A DNA stretch of 12,216 nt from Rhizobium sp. Q54 (GTDB lineage Bacteria; Pseudomonadota; Alphaproteobacteria; SMXS01): assembly GCA_945872035.1 (NCBI GenBank), contig CAMBYA010000037.1, positions 1 through 12,216 of the forward strand. The letters are read 5' to 3'. The position numbers and the translations under genes were made by a program. Shown piece after piece: positions 183 through 12,216 of the stretch; position 1 is the stretch's first letter; each line of letters begins with the position of its first letter. Below the pieces are notes generated by a model, which was not told the origin of the DNA, searched no databases, and was given only the letters and a program-made list of their open reading frames with translations.

Positions 183-605
183 TCAATCCTCGTCGGCGAT
201 GGCGGATTCCTCGATGCGCTCCATGTCTTCATCGGAGAATCCGAAATGATGGCCGATCTCGTGAATCAGGACATGCGCGATGATGTGACGGACGCTCTCT
301 TCCCGGTCGCCTTCATCCCAGTAGTCGAGGATCGGTTCACGGTAGAGGAAGATCACGTCGGGAACGCCGTCGACCACGCCGGAGACCTTGTCGAGGATGT
401 TGACGCCTTCGTACAGGCCCAGCAGGTCCCACGGGCTTTCCAGCTCCATTTCCTCGCAGACCTCGTCGTCGGGGAAGTCCTCGATGCGGATGGCGACGCC
501 CTCGCAATGTGCGCGGAAATGGGCGGGCAGCTTGTCGAATACCTCCCGCGCGATCACCTCGAATTCCTCGAGGGACGGATAGTCGTCGTCGTCACTGTCA
601 GTCAC
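183..605 (-). CDS. Small zincin-like metallopeptidase (PF06262-type)
   Basis: This 140-residue acidic protein has a zinc-protease signature HEIGHH at residues 115-120 within HVLIHEIGHHFGFSDEDME. His115 and His119 would be zinc ligands and Glu116 the catalytic base. Length and motif position near the C-terminus match the one-domain zincin family PF06262, whose physiological substrates are largely unknown. No signal peptide is visible, so it is probably cytoplasmic. The start is GTG at 605; the nearest purine-rich stretch upstream (AAGGTGGGG on the minus strand) is rather far for a ribosome binding site. An upstream ATG near 630 is out of frame and soon meets a stop. The gene lies divergent to the Kazal lipoprotein and upstream of the efflux adaptor. 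The family call is firm; the function is open. Confidence 0.88.
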   Translation of the reverse strand: MTDSDDDDYPSLEEFEVIAREVFDKLPAHFRAHCEGVAIRIEDFPDDEVCEEMELESPWDLLGLYEGVNILDKVSGVVDGVPDVIFLYREPILDYWDEGDREESVRHIIAHVLIHEIGHHFGFSDEDMERIEESAIADED

Positions 606-672: not shown

Positions 673-702
673 TTGGCCAGCGGCGCGGAACGACGGTATG
701 GT
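673..702 (+). promoter_or_regulatory. Candidate sigma70-type promoter of the Kazal lipoprotein gene
   Basis: TTGGCC at 673-678 and TATGGT at 697-702 are separated by 18 bp, and each matches the -35 or -10 consensus at four of six positions. A start about seven bases on would leave a leader of roughly 18 nt containing the ribosome binding site GGAGA at 716-720. This is an inference from consensus matching only; GC-rich alphaproteobacterial promoters are hard to call by eye. Confidence 0.35.
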
Positions 703-726
703 GACGCAGACCAACGGAGACCGTCG

Positions 727-1152
727 ATGAAGCCCATTTCCCTGCTGTTCGTCCTGGCCGCGCTGACACTGGCCGCCTGCGCCTCGGACAAGCCGGGCGG
801 ACCCGATCCCGAGGACGCGCTGGGCAAGCCGTCGGCGGTCACCATCCCGGCGGCGTCATCGACTCCGTCCGGCATGGGCCAGGGCGAGGGCAATGCGGTG
901 ATCTGCGACACGGTGGCCGGATTTTCCTGCCCCGATGGCCAGTACTGCAAGTTCGACGGCGGCAGCTGCGGCATCGAGAAGCGCACCGGTGTGTGCGTCG
1001 CCAAGCCGCAGATCTGCACGAGGGACTACCGCCCGCAATGCGGCTGCGACGGCAAGACCTACGGCAACGCCTGCGGCGCCGCGGCCGAGGGCAAGAACAT
1101 CGACTACGAGGGTGAGTGCAAGCCGGCCGAGGGTGCCGAGCCGGCCAAATAG
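727..1152 (+). CDS. Kazal-domain lipoprotein (putative serine protease inhibitor)
   Basis: The ATG at 727 is chosen because GGAGA (716-720) lies six bases upstream and because it gives a clean lipoprotein signal, MKPISLLFVLAALTLAAC, with lipobox LAAC and lipidated Cys18. The +2 residue is Ala, which predicts outer-membrane sorting. The 141-residue product has a Pro/Gly/Ser-rich linker (about 20-55), then a cysteine-rich part. Cys60, 68, 74 and 81 precede a Kazal-like domain with Cys90, 97, 105, 107, 116 and 131 around CGCDGKTYGNAC. Kazal domains inhibit serine proteases by presenting a reactive loop. An envelope-anchored inhibitor could guard against secreted or host proteases, but that is inference, as is any specificity. 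The gene is monocistronic: it diverges from the metallopeptidase gene and converges with the ligase gene. Confidence 0.88.
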   Translation: MKPISLLFVLAALTLAACASDKPGGPDPEDALGKPSAVTIPAASSTPSGMGQGEGNAVICDTVAGFSCPDGQYCKFDGGSCGIEKRTGVCVAKPQICTRDYRPQCGCDGKTYGNACGAAAEGKNIDYEGECKPAEGAEPAK

Positions 1153-1368: not shown

Positions 1369-2946
1369 CTACTCCAGCATCGTCTCCAGCAGCCCCAGCT
1401 CGTCCGCCTCCCTCGGCGGCTTGTCCCATCTGATCCGGTTGATCCGGGGAAACCGCATGGCGACGCCGGACTTGTGCCGCGTGGAACGCTGCAAACCCTC
1501 GAACGCCACTTCCAGTACCAGGCCCTTGTCGGGCTCATGGGTCACTTCGCGGACCGGGCCGAAGCTGTTGATGGTGTTGTCGCGTACGAACCTGTCGAGC
1601 CGCTTCAGCTCGTCGTCGGTGAAGCCGAAATAGGCCTTGCCCACCGGTACCAGCGCGCCGTCCTTCCAGACGCCGAACGTATAGTCGGAATAGAACGACG
1701 ACCGCCGGCCGCTGCCGCGCTGGGCATAGAGCAGCACTGCGTCGACCAGGAACGGGTCGCGCTTCCATTTCCACCAGTAGCCTTTCGGCCGGCCGGCGAG
1801 ATACGGGCTGTCGCCGCGCTTCAGCATGACGCCCTCGACGCTCTCGGCCTCGGCATGGCCGCGCAGTTCGGTGAGGTCGTCGAAATTCGCGAAGGGGATC
1901 AGCGGCGACAGGCCGATGCGCGGCTCGCCCCGCGCTGCGACCCAGGCTTCGAGCCGTTCCCGGCGCTCGTCGAAGGGCAGCGGACGCAGATCCTCGCCGT
2001 CCTCGACCAGCAGGTCGTAGACCCGCAGGCCGGCGGGAAACTCGGCAAGCTGCTTCTTGCCCACGGTCTTGCGGTTCAGCCGCTGCTGCAGGTCGGAGAA
2101 CGGCGCCACCGCGCCGCCGCGCACGACCAGCAGCTCGCCGTCGATGGCGGCCTCGAACCGCATGGCCTCGATCAGGTCGGGGAACGAACCCGAGATATCC
2201 TCGCCGGTGCGGCTGTAGAGCCGCTTCACGCCGCCTTCGGACACCGCCTGCACCCGGATGCCGTCCCATTTCCATTCCGCCCGGTAGTCGGCCGGGTCCA
2301 TCCTGGCGAAATCCGCCTCCTCGACCGGATGCGACAGCATCACCGGCCGGAACGGGGCGAGGGTGCCGTGCTCGGGGCGTTCGGCAAGGCCGTCCGCCCA
2401 GGCGAACAGGTCCAGATAGGGCGGCTCCAGTCCATGCCAGACCTCCTCCACCTCGGCGATGTCCAGGCTGCCATACTGGGCCAGCGCCTGCTTGGCGAGG
2501 CGGGCGGAGACGCCGATGCGCATGGCGCCGGTGATCAGCTTCAGCAGCGCCCAGCGCCCGGTTTCGTCCAGCGCGTCGAGCCAGCCTGCGATTCGCCCCG
2601 GCATGTCGAGCTTCGACGTCCGGTCCAGTTCCTCGACGATCTCCGACAGGTCGGGGACGCGGTTGACGCCGGGGCGCACCGGCCACATCAGCGCGATGGT
2701 CTCGGCGGTGTCGCCCACATAGTCGCGCGACCAGCGGAACAGCGCCGGGTCGGCGCGCTCCTCGATCAGGCCGCGGATCATGGCCGGCTTGGCGTGTTTG
2801 AAGTCCAGCGTGCCGGTCATGGCGGCCAGCGCATAGCCCCGGTCCGGATCGGGCACGTGGCGGAAATAGTCGACGATCAGCGCCAGCTTGTCGTTACGGC
2901 CCGGCGTGTATGACAGGCGGTCGAGCAACTCGGCGAAACGGTTCAC
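1369..2946 (-). CDS. ATP-dependent DNA ligase of the ligase-associated repair cluster (cisplatin damage response type)
   Basis: This 525-residue enzyme would seal DNA nicks using ATP through a lysyl-AMP intermediate. An N-terminal helical DNA-binding domain (about 1-195) is followed by the nucleotidyltransferase core. Visible are motif I EWKWDGIR with nucleophile Lys226, SRTGED (245-250), motif III IDGELL (268-273), VYDLL (309-313), motif IV EGVMLKR (371-377) and motif V WWKWKRD (391-397). The OB-fold domain then ends with motif VI-like FPRINRIRWDK (499-509). The domain order and neighbours match the TIGR04120-type ligase found with the exonuclease, Lhr-Core helicase and PdeM. It starts at GTG 2946, sharing GTGA with the stop of the upstream exonuclease gene, and GGAGAG lies just upstream; the two are probably translationally coupled. 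No catalytic residue appears to be missing. Confidence 0.95.
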   Translation of the reverse strand: MNRFAELLDRLSYTPGRNDKLALIVDYFRHVPDPDRGYALAAMTGTLDFKHAKPAMIRGLIEERADPALFRWSRDYVGDTAETIALMWPVRPGVNRVPDLSEIVEELDRTSKLDMPGRIAGWLDALDETGRWALLKLITGAMRIGVSARLAKQALAQYGSLDIAEVEEVWHGLEPPYLDLFAWADGLAERPEHGTLAPFRPVMLSHPVEEADFARMDPADYRAEWKWDGIRVQAVSEGGVKRLYSRTGEDISGSFPDLIEAMRFEAAIDGELLVVRGGAVAPFSDLQQRLNRKTVGKKQLAEFPAGLRVYDLLVEDGEDLRPLPFDERRERLEAWVAARGEPRIGLSPLIPFANFDDLTELRGHAEAESVEGVMLKRGDSPYLAGRPKGYWWKWKRDPFLVDAVLLYAQRGSGRRSSFYSDYTFGVWKDGALVPVGKAYFGFTDDELKRLDRFVRDNTINSFGPVREVTHEPDKGLVLEVAFEGLQRSTRHKSGVAMRFPRINRIRWDKPPREADELGLLETMLE

Positions 2947-4007
2947 GCGGGCTCTCCGGCGGCGTCTTCGGCGGATTTCAAATTGTCGCCCTGCGGGCCC
3001 TCGCCGTCCTCCTCGTCATAGCCGGCGAGATGCAGCGGCCGGGCCTTCAGGCCGTTCAGCCCGGCCCAGTGCACCAGCGGTTCCTCGCGGCCATGGGTCA
3101 CCCATACCTCCTGCGGCGACAGCTCCAGCAGCGTGCCGGTCAGCTCGTCCCAGTCGGCGTGGTCGGAGATGACCAGCGGCAGTTCGATGCCGCCCTGCCG
3201 CGCCCGGGCGCGCACCCGCATCCAGCCGCTGGCGAAGGCGTTCACCGGCTCGGGCAGCCGCCGGCTCCAGCGGTCGCCCAGCGCCGAGGGCGGTGCGATG
3301 ACGATCTTGCTCATCATCTCGCCCTTCACCGCGTCCTTGGTCAGCCGCAGGTCGCCCAGTTCGACGCCGAGGCTTTCATAGAGCGAGCACAACTTCTCCA
3401 TGGCGCCGTGGATATAGACCGGCGCGTCATAGCCGCCCTGGCGCAGCAGCGTGATGATCCGCTGCGCCTTGCCCAGCGCATAGGCGCCGATCAGCACGCA
3501 GCGTTCGGGGAACACGTCCAGCATGTGCAGCGCCTTGGCCACCTCCTTGCCGTCGTCGGGGTGGCGGAAGACGGGGAGGCCGAAGGTCGCCTCGGTGATG
3601 AACACGTCGCACGGCACCGGCTCGAACGGCGCGCATGTCGGATCGGGCCGCCGCTTATAGTCGCCGGAGACGACGATGCGCCGCCCATGGGCCTCGATCA
3701 CCGCCTGGGCGCTGCCCAGCACGTGCCCGGCCGGCGACAGCCAGACCGTGGCGTCGCCGATCCGGTGTCTTTCTCCGTAACGGGCGGCCTGCTGCGACGG
3801 CGTGAAATCCGCGCCGTAGCGCGCGCCCATGATGGCCAGCGTCTCCTTCGTCGCCAGCACCGAGCCGTGCCCTGCGCGGGCATGGTCCGAATGGCCATGC
3901 GTCACCACGGCCCTGGGCGACGGGCGCGTCGGGTCGATATAGAAATCGCCGGGCGGGCAATAGAGACCCTTCGGCGTCGGGCAGACGATGTCGGTGAAGG
4001 CTTTCAT
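2943..4007 (-). CDS. Ligase-associated DNA exonuclease (metallo-beta-lactamase / beta-CASP-like fold)
   Basis: The product resembles the TIGR04122 exonuclease, related to SNM1/CPSF-type nucleases. Such enzymes process DNA ends with two metal ions. With the start at 4007, metal-binding motif HGHSDH is at residues 37-42, followed by PAGHVLGSA (92-100), SGDYKRR (114-120), TEATFGLP (138-145), SDHADW (281-286) and THGRE (304-308). The frame stays open to an ATG at 4082, with another at 4055. I prefer 4007 (354 residues) because it puts the conserved GLYCPPGDFYID about 13 residues from the N-terminus, as in relatives, and leaves the LexA-type box (4065-4079) outside the gene. No strong ribosome binding site marks any of the three starts. 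The stop overlaps the ligase start by four bases, so the pair forms one operon. Confidence 0.92.
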   Translation of the reverse strand: MKAFTDIVCPTPKGLYCPPGDFYIDPTRPSPRAVVTHGHSDHARAGHGSVLATKETLAIMGARYGADFTPSQQAARYGERHRIGDATVWLSPAGHVLGSAQAVIEAHGRRIVVSGDYKRRPDPTCAPFEPVPCDVFITEATFGLPVFRHPDDGKEVAKALHMLDVFPERCVLIGAYALGKAQRIITLLRQGGYDAPVYIHGAMEKLCSLYESLGVELGDLRLTKDAVKGEMMSKIVIAPPSALGDRWSRRLPEPVNAFASGWMRVRARARQGGIELPLVISDHADWDELTGTLLELSPQEVWVTHGREEPLVHWAGLNGLKARPLHLAGYDEEDGEGPQGDNLKSAEDAAGEPA

Positions 4008-4064
4008 GAAGGAAAGAACATCAGGCGCCGCGGTTTCGTTGCAAGGGACGGGCATAAAGCACCT

Positions 4065-4079
4065 GTTCCCATTCTGTTC
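4065..4079. promoter_or_regulatory. Putative LexA (SOS) box, GTTC-N7-GTTC
   Basis: GTTCCCATTCTGTTC is an exact match to the direct-repeat LexA operator GTTC-N7-GTTC established for several alphaproteobacteria. It lies in the gap between the leftward exonuclease-ligase pair and the rightward helicase-pdeM pair, 19 bases before the helicase ATG. A weak -35/-10 pair for the helicase, TGTTCC (4064-4069) and TAGATT (4088-4093) with an 18-bp spacer, would put the box over the -35 and give a nearly leaderless message. The position between divergent DNA repair genes makes chance unlikely. The motif has only eight fixed bases, so chance remains possible. Confidence 0.7.
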
Positions 4080-4098
4080 CATTCCGGTAGATTAGGCC

Positions 4099-6639
4099 AT
4101 GGATTCGTCGCACCCGCTTCCCGTGTCGCTGCCGCCCGTGTTCCGGGAGTGGTTCGCCGCGCGCGGCTGGGCGATCCGGCGGCACCAGCAGGAACTGCTG
4201 GATCTGGCGGAAAGCGGACGCTCGGCGCTGCTGGTCGCGCCGACGGGCGCGGGCAAGACGCTGGCCGGCTTCCTGCCGCCGCTGATCGAGCTGTACCACG
4301 AGCTGCAGGGGCCGCCCGCCCAGCGAAGACGCGGCCTGCACACGCTCTACATCTCGCCGCTCAAGGCGTTGGCCGTCGACATCGCCCGCAATCTGGAGGC
4401 GCCGTCGAAGGAGATGAGGCTGGGCGTGCGGATCGAGACCCGCACCGGCGACACGCCCATCGAGAAGCGTGCGCGCCAGCGCCACGATCCGCCTGACATA
4501 TTGCTCACCACGCCCGAACAGCTCGCCCTGCTGCTGTCGCACAAGGACGCGGGCGACCTGTTCGGCGGGCTGCGCACCATCGTGCTCGACGAGCTGCACG
4601 CCATCGAGAACACCAAGCGCGGCGACCTGCTGGCGTTGGGCCTCGGCCGCCTGGCAAGCATCGCCCCGCAGGCAAGGCGCGTCGGCCTGTCCGCCACGGT
4701 CGCCGATCCGGACCGGCTGCGGCGCTACCTGGTGCCACAGTTCGTCGGCCACGAACGCATGGCCGATCTGGTGGTGGCCGATCCGGGCGCGGCGCCCGAG
4801 GTCGCCATCCTGCGGACCCGCGAGCGGATTCCGTGGGCCGGCCACCGCGGCGCCTACGCCATGCCCGACATCATGGCCGCGATCAAGGCGGTGCGCTCGG
4901 CGTTGCTGTTCGTCAACACCCGCTCGCAGGCCGAGGCCAGCTTCCAGGCGCTGTGGCAGCTGAACGACGAGAACCTGCCCATCGCGCTGCATCACGGCTC
5001 GCTGTCGGTGGAGCAGCGGCGCAAGGTCGAGCAGGCCATGACCCTGGGGAAGCTGCGGGCCGTCGTCTGTACCTCGACGCTGGAGCTGGGCGTCGACTGG
5101 GGCGCCATCGACCTGGTCATCCAGCTCGGCGCACCCAAGGGCTCGTCGCGCATGATGCAGCGGATCGGCCGCTCCAACCACCGGCTGGACGAGTCGTCGC
5201 AGGCGCTGTTCGTGCCCACCAACCGGTTCGAGGTGCTGGAATGCGTCGCCGCCAAGCAGGCCATCGAGGAGGGAATCCAGGACGGCGACCTGCCGCGCCC
5301 CGGCGGCCTCGACGTGCTGGCCCAGCATGTGGTCGGCCGCGGCTGCGCCGAGCCGTTCGACATGGACACGCTCTACGAGGAGATCACCGCGGCCGCGCCC
5401 TACGCTCATCTCGATCGCCAGACCGTCGAGCGGGTCGTCGACTTCGCGGCGACCGGCGGCTATGCGCTGCGCCGCTACGAGCAGTACCACAAGCTGGAGC
5501 GGCTGGCCGACGGCCGCTACACCATCGCCTCGCGCAAGGCGGCGCAGCAATACCGGCTGAACGTGGGCACCATCGTCGAGGCGCCGATGATCAAGCTCCG
5601 CTCCATCCGGCGCGGCGGCAAGGCGCGCGGGACCGGCGCCGCGCCCCAGGTCACCCATGTGGCGGGCAAGCCGGTCGGCCGCGCCGGGTTCCACATCGGC
5701 GAGGTCGAGGAATGGTTCATCGAGCAGCTCCGCCCCGGCGACACCTTCCTGTTCGCCGGGCAGGTCTGGCGCTTCGAGGGCATGGCCGAGAACGAGGCCT
5801 ATGCCTCGAAGACCGAGGAGAAGGAGCCCATGGTGCCGTCCTACATGGGCGGCAAGTTCCCGCTATCGACGTTCCTCGCCTCCCGCGTCCGCGCCCTGCT
5901 GGCCGATCCGGAACAGTGGCGCTTCCTGCCGGGCCAGGTGAGCTGGTGGCTGGATCTCCAGCGCGCCAAGTCGTCGATCCCCAAGGCCGAGCAGATGCTG
6001 GTCGAGACGTTTCCGCGCGGATCGCGCCACTATCTCGCGTGCTATCCGTTCGAGGGACGCCTCGCGCACCAGACCCTCGGCATGCTGCTTACCCAGCGGC
6101 TCGAGAAGATGCGAATGCGGCCCATGGGCTTCATGGCCAACGACTACGCGCTCACCGTCTGGGCGCTGGGCGACATGTCCCGGTTGGACATGCACCTTCT
6201 GTTCTCCGACGAGGGCGTCGGCGACGGGCTCGACGCGTGGATGGCGGATTCCAACCTGCTGAAACGCACCTTCCGCACCTGTGCCACCATCGCCGGCCTG
6301 ATCGATCGGCGGCATCCGGGCCACGAGAAGACCGGCCGGCAGATGATGGTGAACTCGGATCTCATCTATGAGGTGTTGGGACGGCACGAGCCCGACCATA
6401 TCCTGTTGCAGGCGACCCGCGAGGACGTGTCGGCGGGCCTGCTCGACCTGGCGCGCATGCGCCAGCTGCTGGAGCGGATTCGGCCGGCCGGGCGCATCCT
6501 GCATCGCACGCTGGCGCAGATCTCGCCGCTGGCGGTGCCGCTGATGATGGAAATCGGCCGGGAATCGATCGGTGGCGAGGCGAACGAGGATTTGCTGGCG
6601 GAAGTGGCTGACGAGTTCATGGAGATCCTGAATGGCTGA
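4099..6639 (+). CDS. Ligase-associated DEXH-box DNA helicase (Lhr-Core type)
   Basis: This 846-residue superfamily 2 helicase would translocate on single-stranded DNA with ATP. The first RecA-like domain has a Q-motif-like RRHQQELL (27-34), Walker A APTGAGKT (47-54), TTPEQLALLLS (137-147), motif II DELH (164-167) and motif III SAT (198-200). The second has LLFVNTRSQAE (269-279), CTSTLELGVDWG (324-335) and motif VI QRIGRSNH (354-361). A long C-terminal part, about 380 onward, would hold the winged-helix and Lhr-specific domains. Its length and neighbours fit TIGR04121, the Lhr-Core helicase of the ligase cluster, and not full-length Lhr of about 1,500 residues. The ATG at 4099 has no clear ribosome binding site, but the protein aligns with the family from there. 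The 3' end overlaps pdeM by eight bases. Confidence 0.95.
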   Translation: MDSSHPLPVSLPPVFREWFAARGWAIRRHQQELLDLAESGRSALLVAPTGAGKTLAGFLPPLIELYHELQGPPAQRRRGLHTLYISPLKALAVDIARNLEAPSKEMRLGVRIETRTGDTPIEKRARQRHDPPDILLTTPEQLALLLSHKDAGDLFGGLRTIVLDELHAIENTKRGDLLALGLGRLASIAPQARRVGLSATVADPDRLRRYLVPQFVGHERMADLVVADPGAAPEVAILRTRERIPWAGHRGAYAMPDIMAAIKAVRSALLFVNTRSQAEASFQALWQLNDENLPIALHHGSLSVEQRRKVEQAMTLGKLRAVVCTSTLELGVDWGAIDLVIQLGAPKGSSRMMQRIGRSNHRLDESSQALFVPTNRFEVLECVAAKQAIEEGIQDGDLPRPGGLDVLAQHVVGRGCAEPFDMDTLYEEITAAAPYAHLDRQTVERVVDFAATGGYALRRYEQYHKLERLADGRYTIASRKAAQQYRLNVGTIVEAPMIKLRSIRRGGKARGTGAAPQVTHVAGKPVGRAGFHIGEVEEWFIEQLRPGDTFLFAGQVWRFEGMAENEAYASKTEEKEPMVPSYMGGKFPLSTFLASRVRALLADPEQWRFLPGQVSWWLDLQRAKSSIPKAEQMLVETFPRGSRHYLACYPFEGRLAHQTLGMLLTQRLEKMRMRPMGFMANDYALTVWALGDMSRLDMHLLFSDEGVGDGLDAWMADSNLLKRTFRTCATIAGLIDRRHPGHEKTGRQMMVNSDLIYEVLGRHEPDHILLQATREDVSAGLLDLARMRQLLERIRPAGRILHRTLAQISPLAVPLMMEIGRESIGGEANEDLLAEVADEFMEILNG

Positions 6640-7330
6640 AGCAGCGGCGGCGGGCGAGCTGGCGACGGCCTTGGTCAACGGCGCCGGGCTCGTGTTCGAC
6701 CGGTCGGGCGCGGCGTGGTGGCCGGAGGAACGGCTGCTCGTCGTCGCCGACCTGCATTTCGAGAAGGGATCGTCATTCGCCGCGCGTCGCGGCGTGCTGC
6801 TGCCGCCTTACGACACCCGCGAAACCCTGGCGCGGCTCGAGGCTGCCTGCGCGGTCTACCGGCCGAAAACCGTGATCGCGCTCGGCGACAGCTTCCACGA
6901 CCTGGGCGCCGCCGGACGGCTGGGAATCGACGAACTGGCCTCCATCCGGGCGCTGACCGGAGGCCGCGACTGGTACTGGATCGAGGGCAATCACGACCCC
7001 AAGCCGCCCGAGAACCTGGGCGGATGGTGCGTCGCCATGCTGGCTTGCGGACCGCTCACCTTCCGCCATCTGCCGCAACAGGGCGACCAGCCGGGCGAGG
7101 TCGCCGGCCATCTGCATCCGGCGGCACGGGTGACGGTGCGCGGGCGCGGCCTGCGCCGCCGCTGCTTCGTCACGGACGGCAGCCGGCTGATCCTGCCGTC
7201 ATTCGGCGCTTATACCGGCGGCCTCGACGTCCGTGACCCCGCCTTCGCCGGCCTGCTCGCCCCGCGCTTCCACGCATGGATGATCGGGCAGGACCGGGTT
7301 TATCCGGTGGCGAGCGGGAAGCTATCGTAA
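6632..7330 (+). CDS. pdeM: Ligase-associated DNA damage response endonuclease PdeM (metallophosphoesterase)
   Basis: This 232-residue calcineurin-like metallophosphoesterase has the expected metal-site motifs in order: ADLHFEKG (39-46, Asp40 and His42), GDSFHD (85-90), GNHD (119-122) and GHLHP (159-163). The family (TIGR04123) consists of manganese-dependent DNA nucleases that accompany the Lhr-Core helicase, exonuclease and ligase. The ATG at 6632 lies inside the helicase gene, eight bases before the end of its stop codon, with GGAG at 6621-6624 as ribosome binding site. This predicts translational coupling and balanced amounts of helicase and nuclease. No signal peptide is present, so it should act in the cytoplasm. 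All predicted metal ligands are intact. Confidence 0.93.
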   Translation: MAEAAAAGELATALVNGAGLVFDRSGAAWWPEERLLVVADLHFEKGSSFAARRGVLLPPYDTRETLARLEAACAVYRPKTVIALGDSFHDLGAAGRLGIDELASIRALTGGRDWYWIEGNHDPKPPENLGGWCVAMLACGPLTFRHLPQQGDQPGEVAGHLHPAARVTVRGRGLRRRCFVTDGSRLILPSFGAYTGGLDVRDPAFAGLLAPRFHAWMIGQDRVYPVASGKLS

Positions 7331-7462
7331 CGGTTGCATGCGCGCGTCCCTTTCGCGCTTAATCGTCGCGGGTTCATCGTGTCGGAGGGCAGCGACCGAG
7401 TGACTGGTCCGGAAACATTCCATCAGACGGGCGGATCGCGCATCCGTGACCGGACCGCGGCG

Positions 7463-8395
7463 ATGGACGCCCTTAAACGGCGGTTGGATGCGCTGACCGA
7501 GACGATCCCTGCGGAGTCTCCGGTCATCTATCTGGACATTCCCATGCATCTGAACGTCGGCGATCTGCTGATTTTCGCCGGGACCGAAAGTCTTCTCGCC
7601 CGGCATGGGCGGCGGGTGACCCACCGCTTCAGTTCCAAGGACTATGCGCGCTTTCTCGACGCGGTCACGGACCGTCACGTTCCGTTGCTGCATGGCGGCG
7701 GCAATCTCGGCGATCTATGGCCGGAGCACGAGTCGGTCAGACAGGATGTCCTGCGGCGATTCCCGCATAACCGGGTCGTGATCTTTCCGCAGACAGTCCA
7801 TTTCCGGAACATGCAAAACGCCGCTGCATGCGGTGCTGCATATCGGGATCATCCGGATTGCACCCTGTTCGTGCGGGACGAGACGTCGCGGAAGCTGGCG
7901 GAGCGGCATATGGGCGTGCCATGCCGGACCGCGCCGGACGCCGCGCATTATCTCTGGCGGTCGGGACCCACCTTCGGAGCGGATGCGGCCGGCCATGGGG
8001 AGCTGGTCTTTCGCCGCACGGATCAAGAGGCCGCTCGGCTTGAATTGGCGCCTGGGGGAGTGGACTGGCAGGACATTCTAACGCCGAGGGACCGGTCTCT
8101 CTTCCGCATGCAGAGACATGCCTTCAGGCTCAATCCCAGCGCGGCGCTGCAGGCGCTGCTGATGGGGATGTGGCGAGGACACCGGGACCGCCTGATCGCT
8201 CGAGCCGCGGCCCACTTCAGGACCAAGGCGCGTATACGCGCCGACCGCCTTCACGCGGTCATCCTGGCCTGCCTGCTCGGCAAGGAGGTAACCATGGAGG
8301 ACAACAATTATGGCAAGCTGTCGTCTTACTTCGATACCTGGATGCCCGGACTGATCCCCGGCGCCGGTTCGGGCGCTCTCGATCCGGGAGCGTAG
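7463..8395 (+). CDS. Polysaccharide pyruvyl transferase family protein
   Basis: From the ATG at 7463 the product is 310 residues, with motifs of the pyruvyl transferase family (PF04230): LDIPMHLNVGDLLI (24-37), LLHGGGNLGDLWP (75-87), FPQT (108-111), FVRDE (136-140), APDAAHYLW (157-165), ADRLHAVILACLLG (260-273) and DNNYGKLSSYFDTW (280-293). Characterised members move pyruvate from phosphoenolpyruvate to a sugar of an exopolysaccharide, making a ketal. The frame is open from a TTG at 7334; a GTG at 7400 with GGAGGG (7384-7389) ten bases upstream is a real alternative start. I prefer 7463 because it matches the family N-terminus. No glycosyltransferase or export gene lies nearby, so its glycan target is unknown. 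Base composition looks slightly poorer in GC than the repair genes (33 of 60 bases in 7801-7860), weakly hinting at separate ancestry. Confidence 0.85.
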   Translation: MDALKRRLDALTETIPAESPVIYLDIPMHLNVGDLLIFAGTESLLARHGRRVTHRFSSKDYARFLDAVTDRHVPLLHGGGNLGDLWPEHESVRQDVLRRFPHNRVVIFPQTVHFRNMQNAAACGAAYRDHPDCTLFVRDETSRKLAERHMGVPCRTAPDAAHYLWRSGPTFGADAAGHGELVFRRTDQEAARLELAPGGVDWQDILTPRDRSLFRMQRHAFRLNPSAALQALLMGMWRGHRDRLIARAAAHFRTKARIRADRLHAVILACLLGKEVTMEDNNYGKLSSYFDTWMPGLIPGAGSGALDPGA

Positions 8396-9187: not shown

Positions 9188-10426
9188 CTATTTGAGGCTG
9201 TACCTTATCGGCAGGCGCTTCAGGCCGCTGACGAAACTGGACTGGACCCATGCGGGGAAGCCGTCGATCGCCACATCGTCCAGCCGCGGGATCAGCTCCG
9301 CGAACAGCGCGCGCATCTCCATCTTGGCGAGGAACTGGCCCAGGCACAGATGCGGCCCGTAGCCGAAGGCGATGTGCCGGTTGGGCGCGCGGTCGACGCG
9401 GAACTCGTTGGGCGCCTCGAACGCGTCCTCATCCCGGTTGGCCGCATGGTAGAGCAGCATTACCGCGTCGCCCTTGCGGATGGTCTGGCCGCGCAGGACG
9501 TAATCCTCGGTCGCCGTGCGCATGAAGTGCTTCACCGGCGTCGTCCAGCGGATCATCTCGTCCACCGCCGACGGGATCAGCGACGGGTCGGCCTTCAGCT
9601 TCTCCAGTTCCCACGGGCTGCGGACCAGCGCGAGCAGGCCACCCGCCGTCGCCGAACTGGTGGTGTCGTGGCCCGCGGTGGCGATGATGATGTAGTAGGA
9701 CATGGCCTCCAGGTGGCCGATGGGCCTGCCGTCGATGGTGGCGTTGGCGATCACCGTCGCCACATCGTCCTGCGGATGGGCGCGGCGCGCCTCGGTCATG
9801 GCGGTGAAATAGGCGAAGAAGTCCTGCACCGTGCCCATGTCCGGCGCGGACGTCCGCTGCATGTCGGGATCCTGCGCCCCGAACAGTTCCTGGGTCAGCT
9901 TCAGCAGCTTCGGCTCGTCGGATTCGGGCGCGCCCAGGATCATCATGATGACGTGCAGCGGATACCAGACGGCCACTTCCTTGACGAAGTCGCAGCGGCC
10001 GCCCTGGCCCGCCATGCGGTCGACCGTACGCCTCGCCAGGTCGGCGATGCGGTCCTGCAGCTTGTTGAGGCTGCGCGGCTGGAACCATTCCTGGGTCATG
10101 GCGCGGAACACACGGTGGTCCGGGTTGTCCATGTGGATCAGGGTGCGCAGCAGCAGGTGGTTGCCGCCGGTGAAGGCGCGCACCGCCTCTTCCTGCTCGA
10201 TGCTCTGCAGCACGGCGCGCGGGCCGTTCAGGAAGCGGTCGTTCTGGCGCTCCAGCTCCATGATGTCGGCGTGCCTGGTGATCGCCCAGAACGGGCGGAA
10301 ACCGGGCGGCTCCACCCAGGCGACGGGTGCGTTGCGGCGCATGTCGTCGAGCAGCGCGAGCAGCTGGCGCTCGTCGCCCCAGGTGCGCGGATCCGCGACC
10401 GCTGCATAGTCGGTGATGGTGCTCAT
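9188..10426 (-). CDS. Cytochrome P450 monooxygenase
   Basis: This 412-residue soluble bacterial P450 has every core signature: I-helix AGHDTT (251-256), the ExxR motif EMIR (290-293), the meander arginine region EFRVDR (341-346), and the haem loop FGYGPHLCLG (354-363) with thiolate ligand Cys361. It would insert one oxygen atom into an organic substrate, using electrons from a ferredoxin and ferredoxin reductase. No redox partner gene is in the window and the substrate cannot be read from the sequence. The ATG at 10426 follows a strong ribosome binding site, GGGGAGGA, about five bases upstream. The gene lies 58 bp downstream of the OsmC gene in the same orientation, so they may share a transcript. 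No signal or membrane anchor is present, and length is normal for the family. Confidence 0.95.
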   Translation of the reverse strand: MSTITDYAAVADPRTWGDERQLLALLDDMRRNAPVAWVEPPGFRPFWAITRHADIMELERQNDRFLNGPRAVLQSIEQEEAVRAFTGGNHLLLRTLIHMDNPDHRVFRAMTQEWFQPRSLNKLQDRIADLARRTVDRMAGQGGRCDFVKEVAVWYPLHVIMMILGAPESDEPKLLKLTQELFGAQDPDMQRTSAPDMGTVQDFFAYFTAMTEARRAHPQDDVATVIANATIDGRPIGHLEAMSYYIIIATAGHDTTSSATAGGLLALVRSPWELEKLKADPSLIPSAVDEMIRWTTPVKHFMRTATEDYVLRGQTIRKGDAVMLLYHAANRDEDAFEAPNEFRVDRAPNRHIAFGYGPHLCLGQFLAKMEMRALFAELIPRLDDVAIDGFPAWVQSSFVSGLKRLPIRYSLK

Positions 10427-10484: not shown

Positions 10485-10904
10485 TCACGGCGCCTCGGCC
10501 ACTTCGAAATCGTGGGTGATCGCCACCGATCTGGACAGCATGGCCGACGCCGAGCAGTATTTTTCCGCCGACAGGGCGATGGCGCGCTCCACCTTGGCGG
10601 CGTTCAGCTTGCGTCCGGTCACCACGAAGTGCAGGTGGATCTTCGTGAACACCTTGGGATCCTCTTCGGCCCGTTCCGCGTCGATCTCGAGGGCGCAGTC
10701 GGTCACCGCCTCGCGGCCCCGTTCCAGGATGTGCACCACGTCATACGAGGTGCAGCCGCCGAGCCCCATCAGGATCAGTTCCATCGGCGTCGGCGCGATG
10801 GCGACGCCGGTCTTGCCGCCCTTGCTGCCCATCACCACGGCATGCCCGCTGTCGGACTCGCCGAGGAAATTCCGGTCCTCGATCCATTTTACGTACGCTT
10901 TCAT
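10485..10904 (-). CDS. OsmC/Ohr family protein (YhfA-like)
   Basis: The ATG at 10904 gives 139 residues and follows GAGG six bases upstream; the frame is open to 10985 but the extension is unlike the family. The two redox cysteines are present: Cys51 in LGGCTSYDVV and Cys117 in EKYCSASAML. OsmC-type proteins are dimers that reduce organic hydroperoxides with these two thiols. The early WIEDRNFLGESDSGHAVVMG and the KYCSASAML pattern look more like the YhfA branch, whose substrate is not well defined, than Ohr. It is cytoplasmic, with no signal peptide. It is the first gene upstream of the P450, and its divergent neighbour is the radical SAM gene; a peroxide-protective role beside an oxygen-using enzyme is plausible but inferred. 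Confidence 0.9.
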   Translation of the reverse strand: MKAYVKWIEDRNFLGESDSGHAVVMGSKGGKTGVAIAPTPMELILMGLGGCTSYDVVHILERGREAVTDCALEIDAERAEEDPKVFTKIHLHFVVTGRKLNAAKVERAIALSAEKYCSASAMLSRSVAITHDFEVAEAP

Positions 10905-10943
10905 ACCAAACCTCGTATAAGGGAGCTGCAATCTAGCGGCGCC

Positions 10944-11032
10944 ATGTCCGATGGGAAACCCCCGCAGACGATAAGCCGATTGCAACGAGGGCCGGACTCC
11001 GCCGGTTTTCGACGATTGTATGTCCGATGGGA
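10944..11032. repeat. 13-bp direct repeat in the divergent OsmC / radical SAM promoter region
   Basis: ATGTCCGATGGGA occurs exactly at 10944-10956 and again at 11020-11032, start points 76 bp apart (about seven helical turns). Both copies lie in the 184-bp gap between the divergent OsmC and radical SAM genes. Each copy is 40-57 bp from the nearest start codon. Nothing else in this gap looks like a gene. The pair could be operators for a shared regulator or leftovers of a local duplication. Confidence 0.45.
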
Positions 11033-11088
11033 TCTCGGTGCGGTCGGTAGGAGTCTATTCGTCGACGCCTTTACCCGGGGAGCACCGG

Positions 11089-12216
11089 ATGACGCCCTTG
11101 CGCATCACCATAGTCGATTTCGCCACGCGCGGACCACAGAAGCGGCTCTATGCCCGCATCATGAACGCCAACTATGCGAGCATCATGCCGCAGGTCATGG
11201 GCGTGTGGTGCGAGGAGCTGGGCCACAAGGTCCGCTACATCTGCTACACCGGCAGCGAGGACATCACCGGCTCGCTGGTCGAGGACACCGACGTGCTGAT
11301 CCTCGGCGCGTTCACCCGCTCGGCGCTCGCCGCCTACGCGGTCAGCGCCCTCTACCGGGCGAAGGGCGTCGTCACCGTCCTCGGCGGGCCGCATGCGCGG
11401 TGCTACCCGGAAGACGCGGTGAAGTATTTCGACTACGTGCTCGGCTTCACCGACAAGATCGTGCTCGCCGACCTGCTGCACGAGCGCGCGCGGCACCGGC
11501 CGCTTGGCCGGGAGATGTCGGCCGCCCGCCAGCCGGACAGCCTGCCGGGCGTGCGCGAGCGCTGGAAGTTCATCGCGCCGACCCTCGCCAAGGCGCCCAC
11601 GCTGAAGCTGATCCCGATGATCGGCTCCATGGGCTGCCCCTACACCTGCAGCTTCTGCATCGATTCCACCGTCGACTACCAGCCCATGGAATTCGACCAG
11701 ATCACCGAGGATCTGCGCTTCGTCCAGGCCAACCAGAAGAATCCCTACGTCGCCTGGCACGATCCCAATTTCGGCGTGCGCTTCGACGACTACATGACCG
11801 CCATCGAGGGCGCGGTCAGGCCCGGCTCGGTCCGGTTCGCCGCCGAAAGCAGCCTGTCGCTGCTGTCCGAGGACAACGTCAAGCGCATGGGCCGCAACGG
11901 CTTCGTCGGCATGCTGCCCGGCGTCGAGTCCTGGTACGACTACGGCAACAAATCGCGTGCCACCCGCGCCAGCGGTGCCGACAAGGTCCGGCAGGTGTCG
12001 GATCACGTGAACATGATCCTGCGCTACATCCCCTATGTGCAGACCAATTTCGTGCTCGGCCTCGACCAGGACGAGGGCGACGAGCCGTTCGAGCTGACCA
12101 AGAAGTTCCTCGACGCCTCGCCCGGCGCCTATCCGGCCTACTCGCTGTGGACGTCCTATGGCCGCGCCGCGCCGATGAACCGCCAGCTGCAGGGCGACGG
12201 CAGGGTGCTGCCGTTC
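11089..12216 (+). CDS. Radical SAM protein with cobalamin-binding-like N-terminal region, cut by the window edge
   Basis: The frame runs from ATG 11089, six bases after GGGGAG (11077-11082), to the window end: 376 residues without a stop. Residues 1-140 look like a Rossmann-type B12-binding domain, with TDVLILGAF (67-75) and VVTVLGGPHARCYPEDA (94-110). I find no DxHxxG cobalamin-ligand motif, and the usual GEGE stretch is replaced by LGFTDKIV (118-125). The radical SAM core begins with CPYTCSFC (183-190), whose Cys183, Cys187 and Cys190 would bind the 4Fe-4S cluster. Further core-like segments are WHDPNFGV (223-230) and GVES (278-281). Such enzymes make a 5'-deoxyadenosyl radical for methylations, rearrangements or ring chemistry. 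Substrate and pathway are not recognisable. Confidence 0.9.
   Translation, partial: MTPLRITIVDFATRGPQKRLYARIMNANYASIMPQVMGVWCEELGHKVRYICYTGSEDITGSLVEDTDVLILGAFTRSALAAYAVSALYRAKGVVTVLGGPHARCYPEDAVKYFDYVLGFTDKIVLADLLHERARHRPLGREMSAARQPDSLPGVRERWKFIAPTLAKAPTLKLIPMIGSMGCPYTCSFCIDSTVDYQPMEFDQITEDLRFVQANQKNPYVAWHDPNFGVRFDDYMTAIEGAVRPGSVRFAAESSLSLLSEDNVKRMGRNGFVGMLPGVESWYDYGNKSRATRASGADKVRQVSDHVNMILRYIPYVQTNFVLGLDQDEGDEPFELTKKFLDASPGAYPAYSLWTSYGRAAPMNRQLQGDGRVLPF

Follow-up and report, generated by a model that had tools for sequence, protein, structure and literature searches.

The stretch of DNA that we analyzed (12,216 bases, hereafter the window) carries all four members of the ligase-associated DNA damage response module, each scoring above its curated NCBIfam cut-off. 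The plus strand holds the ligase-associated DEXH box helicase (4099–6639; TIGR04121, 1067 bits, cut-off 850) and the ligase-associated PdeM (6632–7330; TIGR04123, 233 bits, cut-off 150), and the minus strand holds the ligase-associated exonuclease (2943–4007; TIGR04122, 461.6 bits, cut-off 325; start assigned by homology) and the module's ATP-dependent DNA ligase (1369–2946; TIGR04120, 820.7 bits, cut-off 400). Open reading frames overlap within each pair, by 8 bp between helicase and PdeM and by 4 bp between exonuclease and ligase, so the module is likely arranged as two divergent two-gene operons, exonuclease–ligase and helicase–PdeM.

The start codons of the helicase and the exonuclease are 91 bp apart, and the gap between them holds a LexA-type box. 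As the original prediction had stated, a perfect GTTC-N7-GTTC sits where both repair pairs diverge: GTTCCCATTCTGTTC, that is GTTC-CCATTCT-GTTC, lies at 4065–4079 on the plus strand with all eight core positions exact, between the helicase ATG at 4099 and the exonuclease ATG at 4007 (minus strand). Measured from its near end on each side, the box stands 19 bp from the helicase ATG and 57 bp from the exonuclease ATG; it is the only match to the motif on either strand of the window. A mechanical listing gives the exonuclease frame as 2943–4082, and a start at 4082 would run through the box. The TIGR04122 match begins at residue 34 of this longer frame, and homology to relatives begins at 4007. 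A further in-frame ATG upstream of 4007 (4055–4053, minus strand) is absent from one relative (G003) and is therefore probably not the start of the exonuclease.

The window has further genes. A zincin-like metallopeptidase gene (183–605, minus strand; PF06262) adjoins a gene for a Kazal-type protease inhibitor domain protein (673–1152, plus strand; PF00050). Downstream of PdeM lie genes for a polysaccharide pyruvyl transferase (7334–8395, plus strand), a cytochrome P450-like protein that scored under the model cut-offs (9188–10426, minus strand), an OsmC family protein (10485–10985, minus strand), and a radical SAM protein that extends past the window end (11020–12216, plus strand).

Conservation and spread of the box

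The order to which this organism belongs is small, and the order-level and family-level samples consist of the same ten genomes. The helicase is present in eight of them, each with a perfect box that ends 19–20 bp upstream of the helicase ATG. In a comparison anchored on the box, the core was identical at 8/8 positions in each of eight pairs, with the 40 bp upstream agreeing at only 8–18 of 40 positions. Conservation in relatives had been proposed as a check on the site, and the outcome indicates strong constraint. The helicases themselves can be very close: that of one relative (L217/G007) is 99% identical to the helicase of the window. Helicases 95%–99% identical to that of the window are encoded in public assemblies (L214, L215, and L217) whose titles name Candidatus Kuenenia, Sphingomonadales, and Rhizobium, so some of these titles are probably wrong.

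A wider survey covered 142 helicase regions, composed of 140 of the 142 helicase-matching genomes among 387 sampled from the class (G037 and G366 left out) and of G002 and G003, added from the family sample. Contig ends shortened the region below the scanned span in four genomes (G201, G080, G062, and G108), and in six (G113, G198, G244, G239, G365, and G373) the match began well inside the protein and the position of the gene start was extrapolated from it. Scanning from −300 to +60 around the aligned helicase start turned up a perfect box in 17 of the 142 regions, always between −80 and −16. Eight of these belong to the order and nine to the 134 other regions: all three helicase-bearing genomes of family f103, three out of five of family f41, and three further genomes (G050, G305, and G288). 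The 125 regions that had no perfect box suggest that SOS control is not general for the module, and with only 9/134 helicase regions outside the order carrying the box, we rejected a class-wide SOS link.

Among the spacing controls, GTTC-N8-GTTC was found in 12/142 helicase regions, nine of the 12 at +41 inside the helicase coding sequence, and seven other spacings were found in zero or one of 142. Scrambled words with the N7 spacing gave 0–6 matches in 142 regions; four of the five CGTT-N7-CGTT matches were GTTC boxes displaced by one base.

A set of named loci was also examined. The box was found in 14 of 66 helicase loci (out of 69; L253, L254, and L272 were left out owing to a gene start outside the record), five of them from this order and nine from Chelativorans and Nitratireductor. 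Judged by identity, the five order loci are probably the same genomes as five members of the class survey. All nine loci from Chelativorans (seven) and Nitratireductor (two) had the box, at −34 to −39, and ten Caulobacter loci had none in the 400 bp ahead of the helicase. In 30 genomes, a gap shorter than 300 bp separates the helicase from a divergent exonuclease; eight of these gaps held a perfect box and three gave no usable gap. The best degenerate match in each of the other 19 was no better than in shuffled sequence (lowest value 0.14). Judged from these sequence surveys, the putative SOS linkage of the module is lineage-specific.

The LexA-type motif of this organism

The original prediction took the direct repeat to be the LexA operator form of several alphaproteobacteria and proposed a genome scan as a check. 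The organism's own assembly (2.38 Mb, 338 contigs, 78% complete) holds 48 matches to GTTC-N7-GTTC against 18 for the reversed control. One of them (C266:358–372) is a perfect box shortly before lexA (C266:410–1093), of which no second copy was found; this bears out the proposed motif. Across the ten genomes of the order, a perfect GAAC-N7-GAAC starts 48–51 bp upstream of lexA in nine out of nine parsed lexA genes. The same scan was to cover dnaE2/imuB; a perfect box was found ahead of an imuA-like gene, at a distance of 18 bp. This gene assignment is weaker, as the match to the ImuA model is under its cut-off (E = 8.5e-19; 68.2 bits, cut-off 150); the open reading frame that follows resembles imuB by eye. 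We did not find recA in the 78%-complete assembly. The recA loci of relatives had no perfect box (0/7), and by eye six of the seven have a one-mismatch form, GAAC-N7-GTAC; the seventh (G001) was scanned from a wrong upstream methionine. Taken at sequence level, the site at 4065–4079 is very probably a LexA operator.

Three further perfect matches in the same assembly point to additional genes: one before a gene for an HTH/S24-peptidase regulator (L048:1990–2004), one at the start of a PA0069-family radical SAM gene (L037:2072–2086), and one 2 bp before a topoisomerase gene (L014:1501–1515). We list these three genes as candidate members of the same regulon.

Promoter elements around the box were sought by eye and by a consensus scan. 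A sigma-70 consensus scan of 3950–4150 returned no promoter for the helicase or the exonuclease. By eye, TAGATT (4088–4093, plus strand) is a putative helicase −10 element, 5 bp before the ATG. It follows the box in six of the eight order genomes, 5–6 bp before the ATG, with altered forms in G002 and G001. This hexamer between box and ATG suggests that the box probably lies over the helicase core promoter, overlapping its −35 region. Beside the box is a TTTATG, a by-eye candidate for the exonuclease side, which is altered in G003.

Could the box be a chance match? The motif is short enough to recur: dinucleotide shuffles of the window gave a mean of 0.20 matches, with at least one match in 39 out of 200, and GTTC-N7-GTTC also occurs within genes elsewhere in the organism's own genome. 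Its presence anywhere in the window is thus weak evidence, and its presence inside the short gap is stronger, as a perfect match arose in 0.3% of 300 shuffles of the divergent gap (which preserve base composition only). Against chance stand the conservation of the core while its flanks drifted and the position of the box, which is fixed across eight order genomes and the same in nine Chelativorans and Nitratireductor loci. On conservation and position we rejected a chance origin, which we consider extremely improbable. It is also unlikely, though less remotely so, that a regulator other than LexA recognizes the repeat, or that it serves as a conserved part of the promoter rather than as a LexA operator. 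The HTH/S24-peptidase regulator, whose open reading frame has its perfect box 70 bp upstream, might be a second LexA-like protein that uses the motif, and the by-eye overlap with the helicase −35 region is what a promoter element would also give. However, the same motif with the same spacing is found at lexA itself, and the seven spacer bases differ between lineages, which fits an operator.

Reach of the box across the divergent gap

Reading the box as a LexA operator leaves the question of whether it serves both gene pairs. The original prediction held that one operator controls all four genes. The part of this claim that stood is the proximity of the box to both starts in the window; in relatives, the box keeps to the helicase and the exonuclease can be separated from it. 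Exonuclease and helicase starts are 91–98 bp apart in five genomes of the order (G000, G003, G005, G006, and G001; the window and four others), and 718, 732, and 449 bp apart in G002, G004, and G007. Genes intervene between the box and the exonuclease in three of the eight order genomes and in four of the nine Chelativorans and Nitratireductor loci. The exonuclease then lies 449–1612 bp from the helicase start, so that the promoter distance to both pairs is not kept.

The inserted genes differ between lineages. In locus L216 (G002-like), positions 2298–2887 carry a gene for a HigB-like toxin (PF05015) together with an HTH antitoxin-like gene, both on the same strand as the exonuclease; L217 (G007-like) has, at 2566–2901 and likewise on that strand, an antitoxin-like open reading frame, assigned by eye with no Pfam match. 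An insert of this kind was also noticed in the gap of G004. The window itself is free of a HigB-like or antitoxin-like insert, despite the near identity of its helicase to that of L217/G007. In the four Chelativorans and Nitratireductor loci, a gene co-oriented with the helicase places the exonuclease 1.2–1.6 kb away; run on L219, Pfam identified this gene as a methyltransferase, and it looks alike in the other three. Loci with the insert include those of C. multitrophicus and N. indicus, and the gap is short in C. intermedius, C. alearense, and N. aestuarii. The gaps of six of these loci (L216, L217, and the four Chelativorans and Nitratireductor loci) hold no second perfect box, and G004 has no box within 400 bp of the exonuclease start.

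We also surveyed the exonuclease side, examining 90 exonuclease starts out of the 113 genomes that have the gene. Ten had a box within 400 bp: four from the order, three from f103, and G088, G273, and G040. Six control patterns were found at 1–5 of the 90 starts, which puts the boxes of the last three genomes at control level. In all three f103 genomes, the gap measures 94–99 bp, and the start of the box is 34 bp away from, and upstream of, the aligned start of the exonuclease. It reads GTTC-N7-GTTC in the exonuclease direction and, by eye, falls within TTGGGT-16 bp-TAGATT. Two lineages thus have the box at the helicase promoter and one has it at the exonuclease promoter, suggesting that whether the other pair is controlled as well depends on the shortness of the gap.

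Whether a single LexA operator is equally shared, with all four genes repressed and induced together through this site, is evenly balanced in our judgment. The short distance between the starts in the window and four other order genomes, the 57 bp from the box to the exonuclease ATG, the exonuclease-side box of f103, and the overlapping reading frames that suggest both pairs are operons all speak for sharing. The inserted genes in 3/8 order genomes and 4/9 Chelativorans and Nitratireductor loci, with no second perfect box found, speak against it, as does the want of a recognized exonuclease promoter, the TTTATG beside the box being altered in G003. We give somewhat more credence to a narrower claim, namely, that in this genome the same bound LexA may also repress the divergent exonuclease–ligase pair. 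This is plausible given the two start codons only 91 bp apart and the nearness of the box to the exonuclease ATG; the exonuclease–ligase promoter must lie nearby. Equal sharing among four genes as a conserved design we rate lower than this. Control of the exonuclease–ligase pair is not a conserved feature, and it has probably disappeared wherever inserted genes part the box from the exonuclease.

Proposed control and relation to known systems

Damage to DNA leads to RecA filaments, which trigger LexA self-cleavage and derepression of LexA targets. Our best explanation, in which we have high confidence, is that a LexA operator lies over or beside the helicase–PdeM core promoter and that damage would relieve repression there by the same route. 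LexA at 4065–4079 would most likely block RNA polymerase from the helicase–PdeM promoter; upon DNA damage, the RecA filament would provoke LexA self-cleavage, and the helicase–PdeM operon would be freed. The binding of LexA to the box, and repression and induction there, are what we infer from the sequence comparisons. More tentatively, and with somewhat less than even confidence, we suggest that the module was recruited to the SOS response separately in at least three alphaproteobacterial lineages, each time through a single LexA box positioned over one member of the divergent promoter pair, that of the helicase in two lineages and that of the exonuclease in the third. It would then be mainly the helicase–PdeM arm that responds to SOS, and a HigBA-like toxin–antitoxin pair would have entered the divergent unit in some relatives.

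The circumstances in which cells use the ligase-associated helicase, nuclease, and ligase module, and their reasons for doing so, are poorly understood. Its four members (TIGR04120–TIGR04123) are the same here as in the module as defined. They are arranged differently in Variovorax, Massilia, and Gemmatimonadetes, where the four genes lie on one strand (five loci), in contrast to the arrangement described here, in which two divergent pairs flank a LexA-type box.

The operator itself is of a familiar kind. Alphaproteobacterial LexA sites have been sorted into GTTC and GAAC consensus groups (PMC6473078), and the box has the motif and spacing of such an operator, shared with the organism's own lexA and imuA-like promoters. 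The ligase-associated module is not among the LexA targets listed in the part of that work consulted. A Caulobacter repair survey (PMC1839093) records CC2040 as an Lhr-like helicase and CC3610 as an ATP-dependent ligase, and the only SOS box mentioned in the portion consulted belongs to a different gene; the consulted portion of PMC9705874 has nothing on the module. A further likeness comes from a different phylum: according to the consulted part of a study of Myxococcus xanthus (PMC12288472), both mitomycin C and deletion of lexA raise the Lhr helicase MXAN_0997, and LexA is described as a negative regulator of lhr. The likeness holds at the level of Lhr helicases. We found no report of LexA or SOS control of the module in alphaproteobacteria in the literature searched, which took in only a minority of subscription journals. 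The LexA operator type is therefore well known, and its predicted link to the ligase-associated module in alphaproteobacteria appears to be the new part.

As a modest addition to a known response, a conserved LexA-type box would tie the helicase–PdeM arm of the module to the SOS response in particular lineages. The prediction that follows is that helicase–PdeM would be induced by mitomycin C and that this induction would be lost on alteration of the box; the cultured genera Chelativorans and Nitratireductor already hold natural variants of the gap.
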